Of a stretch of DNA of 40,608 bases, positions 9,364-29,658 are shown in pieces. The position numbers and the translations under genes are program-made. This DNA is from Minisyncoccota bacterium (GTDB lineage: Bacteria > Patescibacteriota > Minisyncoccia > Phycocordibacterales > UBA9973): contig JAGOSX010000002.1 in NCBI GenBank assembly GCA_018062065.1, positions 6,523-47,130 on the forward strand. Direction: 5' to 3'. Position 1 is the stretch's first letter, and every line of letters starts with the position of its first letter. The notes below the pieces were generated by a model. It did no database searches. It saw nothing but the letters and a program-made list of their open reading frames with translations, and was not told the DNA's origin.

Positions 9364-11601
9364 ATGAGATTACTTAATTTAGAAATTAATGGTTTCAAAT
9401 CTTTTGCGAAAAAAACTAATTTAGAATTTAATACTAGGATTGTTTCTATTGTTGGACCAAATGGATCCGGCAAGAGTAATGTCGTTGAAGCTTTCCGCTT
9501 TGTTTTAGGTGAACAAAGTATGAAATCCATGCGCGGTAAAGGTGGCGCTGATTTGATTTTCAAAGGTTCTAAAAACTTACCAAAAGGCACGGTTGCTAGT
9601 GTGACTATTTATTTCGATAACCGAGATAGAGTTTTTAAATTAACTAATGATACTGGAGAAGAGGTGAATTTAAATTTTGATACTGTTTCTATAACTCGTA
9701 GTGTTTATACTGATGGTCTTAACAAATACATGCTAAATAATAGCGAAGTGAGACTCAAAGATATTCATAATTTACTTTCTTCGTTAAATATCGGTTCTTC
9801 GGGGCATCATATAATTTCTCAAGGTGAAGCTGACCGTATTTTAAATGCGAATGCTCGGGAAAAAAGAGAAATGATAGAAGACGCTTTAGGTCTTAAAGTT
9901 TTTCAATATAAAATCCGCGAATCCGAGAGAAAATTAGAAAGATCAAACGAAAACCTTAAAGAAGTTTTAATGCTAAAGCGAGAAAACGCTCCGCATCTTA
10001 ATTTCTTGCGACGTCAAATCGAAAAGTTTGAAAAGATGAAAGAACTCAAAGTTGAGCTCGGGAATTTATACAAAGAATATTTGAAAAATCAAAGTCTTTA
10101 TTTAGAAAATGAAAAAAGTCAGCTCCTACCAGAAAGAGAAAACCTCAAACGAGAACTAGAAGAATTAAATATTAAAATTGCAGAGAATTCTAGTGAAGAC
10201 AATAAAGAAAATAATGAAAAGTTAGAGGAATTAAAAAAATACGAAAATGAAATTTCTAATCTGCGTCGTTTGAAAGGCGAGATAGACCGCAAACTCGGTA
10301 GAATCGAAGGCTTAATAGAAGCGCGCAAATGGAAAGTTGAAAAGACCAAAGAAGTTAAAATTTTCGATGAAAAAGAATTAGGGATTGTTGTAAACGAGAT
10401 AGACGCTTCTATCGATGAAATTTTAAAACTAGAAGATATTTCTCTCATTAAGAATAATTTGCTAAATATCAGAAATATTTTACATAAGTTTTTAAATAAT
10501 GAAGAAACCGTTAATCCAGATTTAGATTTTGAAAATGAAACTAACGCTTTATTAAATACTAAAAACGAAGTTTCAATCGAGATGACTAATCTTCTAACTG
10601 AAGAAGAAAAATTAGTCTCAATTATTGATTCCTTGAAAAAGGATATAGCGAGAGATATGGATCTCGGACGCGATAAAGAGCGTGAAAAATTTGCTCTTAA
10701 AGTCCGTCATCAAGAAATAGCTTCTGCGCTTTCTTTGGTGAACGTGCGTTTAGAGAATTTATCTCGCGAGATTGATTTATTTAACGAAGAAATCAAAGAA
10801 GGTGAGGGAATAATAGGTAACTTTATTTACGAATATCAAAATTTCGAAGCGAATTTGCCTATAAATAAAGAGCATCAAGATGAATTAAGACGTAGTATAG
10901 AGAGAATTAAAATCAAATTAGAAGACTCCGGATTATCAAATATCGCTGAAGTCGAGAAAGAATACGAAGAAGTTAATAATCGTGATTTATTCCTTGCTCG
11001 TGAAATTGAAGATATTTCAGCAAGTATAACTTCACTTGAGCAATTGATAATAGATCTTAAAACTAAAATCGACATAGAATTCAAATCTGGAATAAATAAA
11101 ATCAATCATAAGTTCGATGAATTTTTCAAAGTTATGTTTGGAGGAGGATATGCTAAACTCGGCATTTATCAAGAAAAAAAGAAAAAGAAAATCAAAGATG
11201 AAGACGGAGAAGAAATTACTATTGATGACGAAGAATCCGAAGTTGAAGAGGGTATAGAGATAGACGTATCTCTTCCTCATAAAAAGGTAAAAGAACTTCA
11301 TTCACTCTCAGGAGGAGAGAGGTCTCTAACTTCGATTGCTTTACTTTTCGCTATGTCGTCTGTGAATCCACCTCCATTCTTAATACTCGACGAAACCGAC
11401 GCTGCACTCGACGAAGCGAATTCTCGTCGTTATGGAGACATGCTCGAATTGCTAGGAGAACGATCTCAATTAATCGTAGTTACTCACAATCGTGAGACTA
11501 TGTCTAGAGCAAACATTCTTTATGGAGTTACTGTGGGTTCTGACGGAGGTTCAAAGCTCTTATCTATCAAATTCGAAGAAGCGCAAGCTATCGCAAAATA
11601 A
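9364..11601 (+). CDS. smc: Short SMC-like chromosome segregation ATPase
   Basis: The head is a true SMC ATPase. The N-terminus has MRLLNLEINGFKSFAKKT and Walker A GPNGSGKSN (31-39). The C-terminus has the signature LSGGERSLTSIALLFA (about 648), Walker B FLILDETDAALDEAN, and VTHNRETMSRANILYGVTV. Only 745 aa long, it is far below the usual 1150-1200. The two coiled-coil arms are short. The roughly 150-residue globular hinge with conserved glycines is not visible. In its place, about residues 320-380, is a helical stretch (FDEKELGIVVNEIDASIDEIL...). An acidic loop (DEDGEEITIDDEESEVEEG) precedes the signature. It likely compacts or segregates DNA, but how it dimerises is unclear. ScpA and ScpB are not in the window. 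Confidence 0.88.
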   Translation: MRLLNLEINGFKSFAKKTNLEFNTRIVSIVGPNGSGKSNVVEAFRFVLGEQSMKSMRGKGGADLIFKGSKNLPKGTVASVTIYFDNRDRVFKLTNDTGEEVNLNFDTVSITRSVYTDGLNKYMLNNSEVRLKDIHNLLSSLNIGSSGHHIISQGEADRILNANAREKREMIEDALGLKVFQYKIRESERKLERSNENLKEVLMLKRENAPHLNFLRRQIEKFEKMKELKVELGNLYKEYLKNQSLYLENEKSQLLPERENLKRELEELNIKIAENSSEDNKENNEKLEELKKYENEISNLRRLKGEIDRKLGRIEGLIEARKWKVEKTKEVKIFDEKELGIVVNEIDASIDEILKLEDISLIKNNLLNIRNILHKFLNNEETVNPDLDFENETNALLNTKNEVSIEMTNLLTEEEKLVSIIDSLKKDIARDMDLGRDKEREKFALKVRHQEIASALSLVNVRLENLSREIDLFNEEIKEGEGIIGNFIYEYQNFEANLPINKEHQDELRRSIERIKIKLEDSGLSNIAEVEKEYEEVNNRDLFLAREIEDISASITSLEQLIIDLKTKIDIEFKSGINKINHKFDEFFKVMFGGGYAKLGIYQEKKKKKIKDEDGEEITIDDEESEVEEGIEIDVSLPHKKVKELHSLSGGERSLTSIALLFAMSSVNPPPFLILDETDAALDEANSRRYGDMLELLGERSQLIVVTHNRETMSRANILYGVTVGSDGGSKLLSIKFEEAQAIAK

Positions 11602-13881: not shown

Positions 13882-15852
13882 TTATTTTACAATATCATAA
13901 TCTATTATTTTTCTCTCAAGATCAACTTTTTTAACTTTAATTTTTATTCTATCTCCAAATTTATATTTCTTGCCTTTTTTCTTACCAATTAATTCCATTT
14001 TCTTATCGTTCAAAACGTAAAAGTCATCGTTTAAATCTTTCATTCTCACCATACCTTCACACTTAGTAGAGATTTCTTCAACATAAAGACCCCATTCATT
14101 CATACCGCTAATAATTCCAGTAAATACTTCTCCTAAATGATTAGACATATATTCAACTTGTTTATATTTAATAGAAGCACGTTCAGCTTCGGTAGCTTTT
14201 TTCTCTTGTTCACTTGAACTGATTGCTATATTTCTATATTCATTTCTATCAAATTTATTTTCTTTACCTTGCAAGTTCATTTCAAGTAATCTATGCACGA
14301 TAATATCAGGATAACGACGAATAGGGGAAGTAAAGTGAGTATAGTATTTAAAAGCTAAACCGTAATGCCCTATATTTTTAGTAGAGTATATAGCTTTTTG
14401 CATACTTCTAACTATGGCACGGTTAATAGTATCAGTTTCATCTTTATTCTTGATGCTTTTAGCTATACGATTTATTTCATAAAAAGGAATAATACCGTCT
14501 TTCATTTTGACGTTGTATTTTAGACTTTTTAAGAACAAGAAAAGATCGTAGCTTTTATCTGGATCGGGTTTATCGTGAATACGATAAAGGAAAATATCTT
14601 TTTGATTTTTATCTTTAGACATTTTCTCTGCAACTTTGCGATTCGCAAGTAGCATTAATTCCTCAATCATTTTGTGAGAATCAGTACGTTCTTTTTTGAC
14701 AACTTTTAAAGGAACTCCTTTTTCGTCTAATACGAATTTTACTTCTTCTTGCTCGAGAGATATTGCTCCATTTTCAAATCTTTCTTTTTTTAAATTAAGA
14801 GCAATTTTATTTAAAATATTTAATTCTTGATGGAATTCTTTTCCTGGATTTAAAATACTTTCATAAGCTTCTTCATAAGTAAATCTCTTGTCAGAGTGAA
14901 TTATCGTTTTACCGTACCACTCACTTTTGATTTTACCTTGCTCGTTTAAAATAAACACCGCACTCATAGTTAGTCTATCTTGATTTGGTACTAGGGAACA
15001 TAAGTCGTTTGATAATACTTCTGGTAGCATTGGTATCGTTCTATCAACTAAATATACTGAAGTCGCACGTTCTCGAGCTTCATTATCAAGAGCACTACCA
15101 GGTACTACGTAATGACTCACATCAGCAATATGAATCCCAACTTCGTACTCATTTTCTTTTATTTTTTTGAAAGATATTGCATCGTCAAAGTCTTTCGCAT
15201 CATAAGGGTCAATCGTAACAGTTAAAGTATCTCTAAAATCACGACGGTTTTTAAAATCGTTTTCTGTGATTCCTTTTTCTTTTATCTCTTTAGCTTCGTT
15301 TTCTGTATCATCTCCTAATTCTAAACTAAAACCTTTCTCTAAAGCGATAGAGTGAATTTCCGCATTATGTTCACCTTTATCTCCTAGAACTTTAACTATT
15401 TCTCCAATAGGAGCTTTCGCATGATCTTTAAAAGAAATAATTTTTCCGTAAACTTTATCTCCTTCTTTTGCTCCGTTTAAACTTTCAGGTTTAATTAAAA
15501 TATCAGTGTACATTTTAGTGTCATCTGGATGTAGGAAATAAATACCGTCTTCTTTTTCTAATACTCCAGAAAATCCTAATTTGTAACGACTTAAAACCTC
15601 TTCAACTTTTCCTGTTAAAATTCCTTTACTTTGGTTGAGGATTACTACTTTAACTTTATCTTGGTTTAGGGCTGTATTTAAATGTTTGTAATCTATTTCT
15701 ACGTTTTCATTATTTTTAGTTTTAATATTACCAATACCCTTAGGGGAGATTGAGATAATACCCTCGAAATACTTTTCAAATTTTCCTTTATTTTTTATTG
15801 ATTTTATTGGTTTTTTAAAATCTCTTACATTCTTTTTTATTTTAGGTTTCAT
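13882..15852 (-). CDS. rnr: Ribonuclease R (RNB family exoribonuclease)
   Basis: 3'-5' exoribonuclease that degrades structured RNA. Order of domains: a basic N-terminus, an OB fold (FEKYFEGIISISPKGIGNI), a second cold-shock-like domain, the RNB catalytic domain with IDPYDAKDFDDAISF (the metal-binding Asp cluster) and VYLVDRTIPMLPEVLSNDLCSL, and a C-terminal S1 domain (GEVFTGIISGMNEWGLYVE). At 656 aa it lacks the N-terminal helix-turn-helix and the long Lys-rich tail of E. coli RNase R (813 aa). The ATG at 15852 is seven bases after an extended -10 box on the minus strand. The next gene begins at the base after its stop. Confidence 0.95.
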   Translation of the reverse strand: MKPKIKKNVRDFKKPIKSIKNKGKFEKYFEGIISISPKGIGNIKTKNNENVEIDYKHLNTALNQDKVKVVILNQSKGILTGKVEEVLSRYKLGFSGVLEKEDGIYFLHPDDTKMYTDILIKPESLNGAKEGDKVYGKIISFKDHAKAPIGEIVKVLGDKGEHNAEIHSIALEKGFSLELGDDTENEAKEIKEKGITENDFKNRRDFRDTLTVTIDPYDAKDFDDAISFKKIKENEYEVGIHIADVSHYVVPGSALDNEARERATSVYLVDRTIPMLPEVLSNDLCSLVPNQDRLTMSAVFILNEQGKIKSEWYGKTIIHSDKRFTYEEAYESILNPGKEFHQELNILNKIALNLKKERFENGAISLEQEEVKFVLDEKGVPLKVVKKERTDSHKMIEELMLLANRKVAEKMSKDKNQKDIFLYRIHDKPDPDKSYDLFLFLKSLKYNVKMKDGIIPFYEINRIAKSIKNKDETDTINRAIVRSMQKAIYSTKNIGHYGLAFKYYTHFTSPIRRYPDIIVHRLLEMNLQGKENKFDRNEYRNIAISSSEQEKKATEAERASIKYKQVEYMSNHLGEVFTGIISGMNEWGLYVEEISTKCEGMVRMKDLNDDFYVLNDKKMELIGKKKGKKYKFGDRIKIKVKKVDLERKIIDYDIVK

Positions 15853-15859
15853 TACTTTA

Positions 15860-15868
15860 AATATAACA
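15860..15868 (-). promoter_or_regulatory. rnr extended -10 promoter
   Basis: On the minus strand TGT followed by TATATT (15865-15860), seven bases before the rnr ATG. The -35 at the expected place (TTAATA) is weak, so this looks like an extended -10 promoter giving a leaderless mRNA. Confidence 0.55.
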
Positions 15869-15904
15869 TAAAACCTTAATTTTATTAAGTTTTTTAGGAT
15901 ATTA

Positions 15905-15932
15905 GGCCTCGTCGCCTATAGGCGACGAGGCC
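15905..15932. repeat. GC-rich perfect palindrome touching a -35 box
   Basis: A 28-nt uninterrupted palindrome: 12-bp GC-rich arms around a central TATA. Its last base (15932) is directly followed by the TTGACT -35 box of the next gene. It stands between the divergent rnr and 15968 genes. Confidence 0.88.
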
Positions 15933-15961
15933 TTGACTTTTTATTTAAAATATGCTATACT
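15933..15961 (+). promoter_or_regulatory. Strong promoter of the hexapeptide-repeat gene
   Basis: TTGACT (15933-15938), 17 bases, TATACT (15956-15961), with TGC just before the -10 (extended -10). This is the strongest promoter in the window by eye. The ATG comes six bases later, so the transcript should be leaderless. Confidence 0.85.
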
Positions 15962-15967
15962 ATAAGT

Positions 15968-17662
15968 ATGAAAATCAAAGGAGTTTTCTTAAATTTAATA
16001 GTTTTGGCCTTATTTTTATTGCCTTTTTCGCAAGCATTTGCTTGTAGCAATTGTAATATTATCTTGCCTGGCGGGGGATATATTATAAACGGTTCTTATC
16101 GTACTAACGCTAGCGGGCTTAATACAGGCTCTTTTGTAACTCTTTCTGCTTATTTACAAACAGGTGGAACTTTTACTAATGCTCAATATAAAACTTTAGG
16201 AAACTACTTTGCTCCAGCAGATTACGCAGTTTTGGGTTCATACTTAACTCCAGCTAATTACGCTACTTTAGGATCGTATTTAGAACCAGCAGATTACCAA
16301 ACACTAGCTTCTTATTTAGATAAAGCGGACTATCAAACTCTAGCTTCATACTTAACTCCTGCTGATTACGCAGTTATAGGCTCATATCTTACTCCCGCTG
16401 ATTACGCAGTTTTGGGTTCATATTTAACACCTGCAGACTATAAAATTCTCGCTTCGTATTGCACTCCTGCTGATTACGTTGTACTTGCAAGCTACTTAAC
16501 TCCTGCAGATTATAAAGTTCTAGCTTCATACTTAACTCCTGCTGACTACGCAGTTATCGGATCATATCTTACTCCCGCTGATTACAAAATATTAGCAAGT
16601 TATCTAACTCCAGGTGACTATACTATATTAGCAAGCTATCTAACTCCAGCAGATTATAAAACTCTCGCTTCATATTTAACTCCAGGGGATTATTCAATTT
16701 TAGCTTCATATCTAACTCCGGCAGATTATAAAGTTCTAGCTTCATACTTAACTCCTGCAGATTACGCAGTTATCGGCTCATATCTTACTCCAGCAGATTA
16801 CGCTGTACTTGCAAGCTACTTAACTCCGGCAGATTATAAAGTTCTAGCTTCATATTTAACTCCTGCGTCTTATACAGTTTTAGGTTCTTACTTAGATCAC
16901 GCTGATTATCTTGCTTTAGGTGCATATTATTCAAACGGTGCTTATTATGTAAATGGAGGATATTTTGTGAATGGATCATATGTTGCAAATGGTAGCTATA
17001 ATGTAAATGGTAGTTATATAGGTAATGGCTCATACAATACAAATGGAAATTATTTTACTCCTGGTAGTTACAATACTAACGGTTCATATTTAGGAGCCGG
17101 AGGATATGAAGCTAACGGAAGTTATACTGGAACAGGTGCTTATAATGCAAATGGTAGTTATGTTGGTTACGGTTCATATTATTCTAACGGAGGTTATTAC
17201 TCAAATGGCTCAGTTTTAGTAAATGGTAATTATGTTACTAATGGTTCATATTTAGGTAACGGTAGTTATAATTCTACTTCTGCTTATAATACAAACGGAA
17301 GTTATAATACAAATGGGTCAACTTTAGCTAACGGAAGTTATACTGGAACAGGTGCTTATAATGCAAATGGTAGTTATGCTGGAAATGGGTCATATAATTC
17401 AAATTCCTCATACAATACTAAAGGAAGTTACTCCAATGCTGGTAGTTATAATTCTACTTCTGCTTATAGTACAAACGGAAGTTATAATACTAACGGCTCA
17501 GTCATTTCTAAAGGATCTTACAATTCAAATGCTTCTATAAATACTACTGCGTCTTATAATACTAATGCTTCTGTTAAAACTAAAGGTAGTGTGAATACTA
17601 CAGGTTCATACAACACGACCGGAGCAGTTAAAAGTAAGGGAGGATATACTACTAGCGGATAG
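15968..17662 (+). CDS. Secreted protein made entirely of hexapeptide repeats
   Basis: This 564-aa protein is exported: residues 1-25 are a Sec signal peptide with a Leu/Phe core and an AFA cleavage site before Cys26. A short CSNC motif and LPGG follow. From residue 37 to the last residue the chain is exactly 88 six-residue units with no insertion or deletion (36 + 88x6 = 564). Tyr fills the second position in 78 of them. Three zones are visible: 7 irregular units (37-78); 40 units forming 20 twelve-residue repeats of type SYLTPADYKVLA (79-318); 41 units of type SYNTNG (319-564), becoming Val/Thr/Lys-richer at the end. There is no C-terminal membrane anchor or sorting signal. I do not recognise the family. 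A beta-solenoid or fibre on the cell surface is inference; function is unknown. Confidence 0.85.
   Translation: MKIKGVFLNLIVLALFLLPFSQAFACSNCNIILPGGGYIINGSYRTNASGLNTGSFVTLSAYLQTGGTFTNAQYKTLGNYFAPADYAVLGSYLTPANYATLGSYLEPADYQTLASYLDKADYQTLASYLTPADYAVIGSYLTPADYAVLGSYLTPADYKILASYCTPADYVVLASYLTPADYKVLASYLTPADYAVIGSYLTPADYKILASYLTPGDYTILASYLTPADYKTLASYLTPGDYSILASYLTPADYKVLASYLTPADYAVIGSYLTPADYAVLASYLTPADYKVLASYLTPASYTVLGSYLDHADYLALGAYYSNGAYYVNGGYFVNGSYVANGSYNVNGSYIGNGSYNTNGNYFTPGSYNTNGSYLGAGGYEANGSYTGTGAYNANGSYVGYGSYYSNGGYYSNGSVLVNGNYVTNGSYLGNGSYNSTSAYNTNGSYNTNGSTLANGSYTGTGAYNANGSYAGNGSYNSNSSYNTKGSYSNAGSYNSTSAYSTNGSYNTNGSVISKGSYNSNASINTTASYNTNASVKTKGSVNTTGSYNTTGAVKSKGGYTTSG
16076..17659 (+). repeat. 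Coding tandem repeat: 88 units of 18 bp
   Basis: The DNA repeat tract encodes residues 37-564 of the preceding gene. Units are 18 bp (36 bp in the middle zone). Long exact copies occur inside: the 52-nt stretch at 17111-17162 recurs at 17327-17378 (offset 216 bp = 12 units). A similar near-copy pair starts at about 17262 and 17442. The tract should be prone to copy-number change by recombination or slippage. Confidence 0.85.
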
Positions 17663-17664
17663 AT

Positions 17665-17692
17665 TTGCGTTTTTAAGATTTTATGTTAAACT
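17665..17692 (+). promoter_or_regulatory. rpsP promoter (TTGCGT-16-TAAACT)
   Basis: TTGCGT (17665-17670), 16 bases, TAAACT (17687-17692) preceded by TGT (extended -10). The rpsP ATG follows six bases later. No terminator is visible after the repeat gene, so rpsP may also receive readthrough. Confidence 0.6.
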
Positions 17693-17698
17693 AACTCT

Positions 17699-19502: not shown

Positions 19503-19537
19503 AATCCCGGTTGATTTATATCAACCGGGATTTTTGT
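19503..19537 (+). terminator. Strong terminator after the 19286 gene
   Basis: 12-bp stem AATCCCGGTTGA/TCAACCGGGATT (19503-19514, 19521-19532), 6-nt loop, T-run. Confidence 0.9.
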
Positions 19538-19559: not shown

Positions 19560-19589
19560 GGCCGGGCACTCATACATGAGTGCCCGGCC
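19560..19589. repeat. GC-rich perfect inverted repeat upstream of rpoB
   Basis: 14-bp arms (19560-19573, 19576-19589) around a 2-nt spacer, no mismatch. Its last base is followed at once by TTGCTT. A T-run after it also makes it a possible second terminator in tandem with the one at 19503. Confidence 0.85.
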
Positions 19590-28344: not shown

Positions 28345-29658
28345 ATGAAGAAAAAAGTAGTTAAAAAAACAAAAAAGGTTTTACCAAAAAAGGTCAAAAA
28401 GGTAGTTAAAGTAAAAGCTAAAGCAAAAGTAGTAAAAAAGAAAGTTGCTAAAAAAGTAGTTAAAAAAACAAAAAAGGTTTTAGCAAAAAAGGTCAAAAAG
28501 GTAGTTAAAGTAAAATCAGAAGTAAAAAAATTAAAACCAAAAGAAATTAAGCCAGCCAAAGAAGTTGTTAAAAAATTAACTTCTGCTGAAAGAAAACAAG
28601 AAGAACTTGAATTCAAGAAAAATTCTTTAATTGAAAAAGGTAAAAAGAGAGGTTTTATTACTTATGATGAAATTTTAAAAACTTTTCCTGATATTGAAAA
28701 CAATATTTTGTTCTTAGATGAACTGTACGAAAGCTTTTCCGTAGCTGGTATCGACGTGCTTGAAGGAGGAAATTTGCTTAATTTGGATGCTGATCAAGAC
28801 GTGAAAGAATTATTGAAAAATGCAAACCATGATTCAATTCAAATGTATCTTAAAGAAATCGGTCAATATCCTCTAATCTATGCGCAAGAAGAAAAGGACT
28901 TAGCAAAAAGAATCGAGAAAGGTGATATTGAAGCGAAAAACTTACTCGCTCGTGCAAACCTTCGTCTTGTGGTTTCTATCGCGAAAAAATACGTCGGTAG
29001 AAGTGCAAATCTTTCTTTGCTCGATCTTATTCAAGAAGGTAATTTAGGTCTTTTTAAAGCAGTAGAGAAATTTGATTGGAATAAAGGATTTAAATTCTCA
29101 ACTTATGCAACTTGGTGGATTCGTCAATCTATAACTCGTGCACTTGCTGATCAATCTCGTACTATTCGTATTCCGGTGCACATGGTAGAAACAATTTCTA
29201 AATACAAGCAAATTCATCGTAAATTAAGTCAAGATTTAGGCCGTGAACCTTTAGCAGAAGAAATTGCAACTGAGATGGGCATTCCAGTAGATAAGATTCA
29301 TGTGATTGAAAATATTTCGCAAGATACTGTTTCCTTAGAGCAACCTATAGGAGATGACGACGATAAATCGACTTTAGAAAACTTTATTTCTGATGATAAG
29401 ATTTTAAGACCAGATCAAGAATCCGCTCGTCGTATTTTATCTGATCAAATTCGTGAAGTTTTAGATGAACTTAATCCAAAAGAAAGAAAGATTTTAGAAA
29501 TGCGTTACGGATTAATAGATGGTATTCAACATACTCTTGAAAGAGTAGGGGAAGAATTCGGAGTTACTCGCGAACGTATTCGTCAAATCGAAGCCAAAGT
29601 TCACGACAAACTTCGCTCTCACGAAAAAATCGCCAGATTAAAAAACTACTTTGATTAA
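28345..29658 (+). CDS. rpoD: RNA polymerase primary sigma factor with Lys-rich N-terminal tail
   Basis: Housekeeping sigma-70. Residues 1-60 are a Lys/Val-rich tail. Residues about 75-130 resemble region 1.1 ([21 protein letters not shown]). Region 1.2 is [15 protein letters not shown]. Region 2 has [14 protein letters not shown] (from 203), [19 protein letters not shown] and [13 protein letters not shown]. Region 3 follows. Region 4 has [15 protein letters not shown] and a helix-turn-helix [19 protein letters not shown]. Region 2.4 and 4.2 are fully conserved, consistent with the TTGACA/TATAAT-like promoters in this window. The tail contains a 22-residue duplication (residues 3-24 and 36-57). 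Length 437 aa. It is the last gene of the rpoB operon, followed by a terminator. Confidence 0.96.
28351..28515 (+). repeat. 66-bp direct repeat inside rpoD
   Basis: 28351-28416 and 28450-28515 are identical except for one base (CCA versus GCA, giving Pro14/Ala47). The copies are 99 bp apart start to start. They encode the two Lys/Val-rich blocks of the sigma tail. Confidence 0.9.

Follow-up and report, generated by a model that had tools for sequence, protein, structure and literature searches.

The window, a stretch of 40,608 nucleotides, encodes a putative exported protein that consists, after its first 36 residues, of six-residue units, nearly all with Tyr at the second position and each with a small residue at the sixth. 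The gene lies as cargo in a variable slot flanked by rnr and rpsP; its array is old, and the protein pattern is under selection. Judged from sequence, the protein is probably a member of a small, fast-evolving family. What the family keeps amid sequence turnover is a physical rule: one Tyr every six residues, one small residue every six, and no slippage. The features of the locus are as follows.

13882..15852, minus strand: rnr (RNase R), left border of the slot
15904..15933, no strand assigned: perfect hairpin with a 13-pair stem, just 5′ of the promoter; role putative
15933..15961, plus strand: promoter, TTGACT-17 nt-TATACT, the -10 preceded by TG; layout shared with five syntenic relatives
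15968..17662, plus strand: gene for the Tyr-hexad protein, an open reading frame of 564 amino acids
15968..16042, plus strand: signal peptide, residues 1 to 25, ending AFA|C; read from the sequence, with a predicted cleavage site
16043..16075, plus strand: mature head CSNCNIILPGG with Cys26 and Cys29; Cys pair in 5/6 family members
16076..16219, plus strand: 8 irregular hexads, residues 37 to 84
16220..16939, plus strand: about 20 dodecads, DYxVLA-SYLTPA, residues 85 to 324; weakly MgtE_N-like
16940..17659, plus strand: 40 SYNTNG-type hexads, residues 325 to 564, running to the stop codon
17699..18007, plus strand: rpsP (ribosomal protein S16), right border of the slot

An old array in a single register

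A reading made from the sequence only had described 88 uninterrupted hexads with Tyr at the second position of 78 and Phe in one. Our recount gave the same numbers: the 564 residues are 36 + 528 (88×6), with zero indels, and a sliding test along the chain detected no register slip anywhere in the protein. All 88 hexads have Gly, Ala, or Ser at position 6 (49 G, 35 A, 4 S), and Ser, Asp, Ala, Gly, and Asn predominate at position 1. In the tested stretch, 79/88 aromatics fell in a single phase of six, compared with 19.1 on average and at most 26 in shuffled sequences. The proposed switch from 12-residue to 6-residue units held in outline, with about 20 dodecads followed by hexads, but the twentieth dodecad is transitional and the hexads number 40. 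The Tyr period of six is continuous through this junction.

We compared the repeat copies with one another at synonymous and nonsynonymous sites. Values of pS and pN were 0.65 and 0.24 for the dodecads and 0.61 and 0.42 for the hexads; overall, pN/pS was 0.37 to 0.69 with pS of at least 0.61, and four relatives gave the same picture (pN/pS, 0.41 to 0.67). Synonymous sites are thus near saturation, which rules out a young tandem expansion of DNA as a trivial origin. Retention of Tyr through its codon rather than the residue was ruled out by the presence of both TAT and TAC in the array. We conclude that the array is old and that its protein pattern is under selection. The strict register of six proteins despite the age of their copies argues that both unit length and Tyr have long been constrained.

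Two other features of the window were recorded. A 99-bp repeat of 1.9 copies (28351-28536), near the rpoD start, gives the sigma factor an N-terminal extension rich in Lys, and an SMC-like protein (9364-11601) has 745 amino acids, compared with 1181 positions in the family model.

Relatives, the rnr-rpsP slot, and predicted export

BLAST-type searches of proteins from 60 relatives and of GTDB contigs gave no match to the window protein. Relatives were recovered by fetching rpsP neighborhoods within the genus and inspecting the stretch that separates rnr from rpsP. A putatively secreted Tyr-hexad protein was found in 6 of 80 genomes of the genus, including that of the window, and in all six it lies between rnr and rpsP; a profile built from the window hexads and four relatives returned the same six genomes of the 80 and no additional ones. 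Similarity searches were blind to the family, and synteny together with the period revealed its members. The relatives are G064 (352 amino acids), G065 (192), G070 (202), G087 (about 308 from a GTG start), and G089, whose gene is interrupted by an assembly gap.

Mean hexad identity is 8 to 37% between proteins and 36 to 49% within one protein. Each protein has its own consensus: SYNTNG (window), AYTAQA, QYQSNN, NYxTGx, FYxVxG, and AYGDNG. This pattern fits homogenization within each gene combined with fast divergence, as we infer. The phase holds throughout each of the six proteins, apart from one local wobble in G087. Variability across the family is lowest at position 2 (0.98 bits) and position 6 (1.42), where charged residues are almost missing, and highest at positions 3 and 5. 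Asp occupies position 4 in 14 of the 26 hexads of one relative; a second relative lacks Cys and carries Gly at position 5. Given such divergence, a single fold may not suit all members.

We surveyed the slot at 15853-17698 of the window and in the rnr-rpsP gaps of loci L003-L031 and L217-L233. In 15 of 46 parsed loci of the genus, the gap is merely 56 to 141 bp. Elsewhere it holds prepilin-like proteins (L003, L004, L006, L009, and L023), small exported proteins, or, in L027, a pair resembling a toxin-antitoxin system. Since the gap is empty or variously filled across loci, the hexad gene counts as cargo of a variable slot, one that is mostly, but not solely, for exported proteins.

More widely, we searched DNA for six successive Y-x-x-x-[GA]-x units, with Tyr required in each. 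Of 397 genomes sampled across the order, 5 had this exact pattern; among 380 drawn over the phylum, the window's genome alone had it. Both counts are lower bounds, because the demand for Tyr in every unit skips looser members. Order matches outside the genus were YYSQ[AG][SN]-like blocks in larger proteins, several with features of exported proteins, from other genera or families (L241:2103-4292, L240:2984-5551, L238:1-3459, L237:1969-2991, and L183:1574-2602). Some of these blocks include a common 8-residue variant (SYVVYSQA or SYVGYSQS), and the gene in L237 lies about 1.3 kb from trmD. Among the matches listed from GTDB-wide and IMG/VR pattern scans, most were other low-complexity repeats (YPQQGG, GGYGGY, and out-of-frame arrays).

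The promoter had been called the strongest-looking in the window. It is strong and is kept in relatives; with the TG counted, it ties with three others as the best in the 40.6 kb. All six family genes have TTGACA/T, a spacer of 16 to 17 nt, and a -10-like hexamer ending 6 to 9 nt 5′ of the start codon, with TG before the -10 in five of six. In the window gene, the -10 ends only 6 nt from the ATG, so that the transcript is predicted to be leaderless; the promoter type is conserved in the family and probably leaderless throughout. The hairpin at 15904..15933 is possibly a bidirectional terminator or insulator. Two further perfect intergenic hairpins of 13 pairs lie at 19503-19532 and 19560-19589.

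The window protein is predicted to be exported. Its proposed secretion was supported by a signal-peptide-like N terminus with an AxA site and by similar ends in relatives. Five family proteins start MK-x-K (G087 via its GTG start), and the relatives have AKA|C, ASA|C, and AEA|C motifs, of the AxA type cleaved by signal peptidase I. A C-x(1-2)-C pair is present in the head of five of six proteins, directly after the AxA motif in four; G070 lacks the pair. Residues -3 to -1 before the Cys (AFA, AKA, ASA, and AEA) differ from the [LVI]-x-[GAS] expected of a lipobox. Among 14 control genomes, searches for Lgt and LspA were positive in 9 and 10, respectively; in the six family genomes, they found neither in any. 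These genomes are 74 to 98% complete, so one absence means little, but six of six does carry meaning, and lipid anchoring is thus unlikely. No sortase was detected in the genome of the window, which is about 90% complete, and the window protein, whose repeats reach the stop, has no C-terminal anchor or sorting signal.

Fold and possible role

The hexads have their maximum hydrophobic moment at 180 degrees (0.287, versus 0.036 near 100 degrees), and their residue pattern thus alternates in the manner of a beta-strand. The sequence-only reading had suggested a beta-solenoid or a tyrosine-stacked fiber and had proposed structure prediction as a check. AlphaFold2 was unsure: the full window protein gave a mean pLDDT of 47 and a pTM of 0.27, with short strands in the hexads but one 8-residue helix drawn in each dodecad. 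An alignment with G087 first and four rows beneath gave a pLDDT of 46 and one 4-residue strand per hexad (EEEE--). Strands were thus drawn, as proposed, but at low confidence, and half of the repeat appeared as short helices, which counts against the proposed fold. AlphaFold2 tends to over-predict confident beta-solenoids for repeat sequences (PMC11795689), so the strand model at pLDDT 46 carries little weight, and the program's unsureness argues somewhat against a simple solenoid. Neither model had a Foldseek match under E 0.001, and profile searches of the PDB gave insignificant matches only. The low-confidence G087 model had its lowest rmsd on right-handed beta-helices (2.6; e.g., tapirin and HxuA). 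We put the chance that the hexads are beta-strands slightly below even.

The explanation that we favor, with a confidence that stops just short of one-half, is that the gene belongs to a family, carried in a variable slot, of secreted, beta-structured surface fibers or solenoids. Expression would come from the gene's own strong, probably leaderless promoter. The protein would pass through Sec and be cut at the AxA site, leaving the Cys pair at the mature N terminus. Each hexad, [G/A]-[small]-Tyr-x-[T/V/S/A]-x, would form a short beta-strand and a two-residue turn (N-G, P-G, or P-A), and successive hexads, stacked with no slippage, would build a long beta-solenoid or cross-beta-like fiber, whose Tyr residues may line up as continuous ladders. 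The fiber would stand at or near the cell surface, perhaps held or cross-linked via the N-terminal cysteines, and would serve in contact or adhesion, with an exposed face that varies fast among species. If the hexads fold in this way, they offer a simple, designable fiber with tyrosine ladders.

To our knowledge, how most host-dependent ultrasmall bacteria recognize and hold their hosts is largely unknown. By its genome size and gene content, the source bacterium is a putative member of the Patescibacteria (CPR); it is tiny and probably host dependent. Cultured Patescibacteria have an episymbiotic life-style (PMC12206443). An adhesion role is suggested by this life-style together with export, fast divergence, and the variable slot; we regard it as possible but on balance doubtful. 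A more specific version, a new class of secreted beta-solenoid or fiber with Tyr on every face (three ladders per 18-residue coil), a Cys-pair cap, and a function as a rapidly varying, slot-swapped contact fiber of ultrasmall episymbionts, is unlikely, at about one chance in four.

The alternative that survives best, which we consider somewhat unlikely, is a disordered sticker-and-spacer matrix, in which regularly placed Tyr residues would cross-link weakly or through dityrosine within a gel, capsule, or glue outside the cell, in the manner of resilin-like or low-complexity, aromatic-rich proteins. The low-complexity S/G/N/T/A/Y composition is consistent with disorder, as are a pLDDT below 50 in the hexad half and a charge-hydropathy position slightly on the disordered side for that half, G065, and G089; extracellular repeat regions of other microbes are frequently disordered (PMC9879509). 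However, spacers would tolerate changes in length, whereas six old arrays keep phase with one local wobble, and both the small residue at position 6 of every unit of the window protein and the 180-degree alternation argue against disorder. If the hexads do stay unfolded, they form a clean natural sticker-and-spacer polymer.

A two-part protein is a weaker candidate, with perhaps a one-in-five chance. The dodecads would form an alpha-solenoid like that of MgtE_N or FliG (helix PADYKVLA, loop SYLT), and the C-terminal hexads would be beta-structured or disordered. The helices drawn by AlphaFold2 in each dodecad point this way, as do a score of 28.9 bits for region 73-324 alone against MgtE_N (cut-off, 25.9) and a Foldseek match of that AlphaFold2 model to the MgtE cytoplasmic domain 8gpv (probability, 1.00; E, 0.034; rmsd, 4.4; 117 columns). 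Against it, the MgtE_N score is a sum in which no single stretch passes, the whole protein scores 23.8 bits, under the cut-off, and pLDDT is about 50. Moreover, MgtE_N lies in the cytoplasmic part of a magnesium channel, the period of six is unbroken over the junction, and a profile with the window's own hexads also catches the dodecads (E, 5.7e-23), a partly circular result.

Last, a classic left-handed beta-helix of the acyltransferase or YdcK type, with Tyr replacing the small core residue, is very improbable: the V-x-G-x-Y-x hexads of G087 do match the YdcK-like phage family phrog_31248 (E, 1.9e-23), in register with NAxVxG phage hexads, but this match rests on V-x-G spacing, the window protein itself matches no YdcK-like PHROG family, and in superpositions of the low-confidence model from Foldseek's own matches, left-handed templates gave an rmsd of 12 to 13, compared with 2.6 to 4 for right-handed ones.

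Comparison with known families

No named family had been known for this layout, and searches of Pfam, NCBIfam, the PDB, PHROG, and the literature agree in giving no match that names the family of the window protein; we found no paper on such a repeat in these bacteria. No Pfam domain lies above its cut-off in the whole protein, and no adhesion domain was recognized.

The repeat had also been set apart from the classic left-handed hexapeptide motif, rightly so: Hexapep (PF00132) is absent among Pfam matches up to E 10, and L/I/V predominate at none of the hexad positions, as opposed to [LIV]-[GAED]-x2-[STAV]-x. The Hexapep transferases (LpxA, GlmU, and LpxD) share the period of six, and their three faces per coil are a possible geometry, but they are enzymes rather than secreted fibers and have an aliphatic core position where the window protein has Tyr. 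Bactofilins have a hexad-like beta-helix that polymerizes into filaments. They share a hexad-like period but are cytoplasmic, unlike the window protein, which is predicted to be exported and has no match to PF04519; G087 scores 12.2 bits (cut-off, 27.9).

YdcK-type phage solenoids (PF18836; phrog_7964, 5070, and 31248) resemble the family in their uninterrupted hexads, single Gly position, and alternation. Their units are [ND]-A-x-V-x-G, without Tyr, and two examples sit among recombination and regulation genes; two phage proteins with such hexads are of this type, which has Pfam YdcK beta-solenoid and bactofilin matches. PF18836 gave no Pfam match in the window protein or the four relatives scanned. 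For the match of G087 to phrog_31248, swapping positions 1 and 2, which moves the Tyr, kept it, whereas reversal or a swap of positions 3 and 4 abolished it. After these controls, kinship of G087 was kept as a resemblance only, and G087 may perhaps work like such solenoids. A phage origin was rejected, since a Vibrio phage match to the window protein was antisense to a gene there, as was one G087 match. Temperate phages carry YdcK-like solenoid genes at L379:3546-4508 and L378:3285-4103; such a gene adjoins an ERF recombination gene in phiST1 and lies near a Rad52-type one in phiRM10. In a phage gene that is annotated as protein coding (L377:2801-3583; MG592418.1, 39507-40289), five "CRISPR spacer" features lie within the repeats and are probably misannotated.

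In ice nucleation proteins, a tyrosine ladder along a long beta-solenoid has been proposed as the dimer interface in fiber assembly (PMC10727499). These proteins have a 16-residue coil with TxT motifs, whereas the window protein has a period of 6/12 and no Pfam match. The YYSQ[AG][SN] blocks (L237, L238, L240, and L241) share Tyr every six residues and a small position 6 but are segments of larger multidomain proteins.

The units of the MgtE_N/FliG superhelix are 12 residues long and have the helix cap L-[ST]-P-x-[DE], and the window dodecads resemble them. The superhelix, however, is a cytoplasmic domain of a channel or motor. MgtE_N adjoins CBS and membrane domains, whereas the window protein has a signal peptide and repeats that run to the stop. 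By the sequence comparisons made here, the window protein is unnamed and probably stands outside the families tested, while a hexad repeat and a surface fiber are each of a kind already known.
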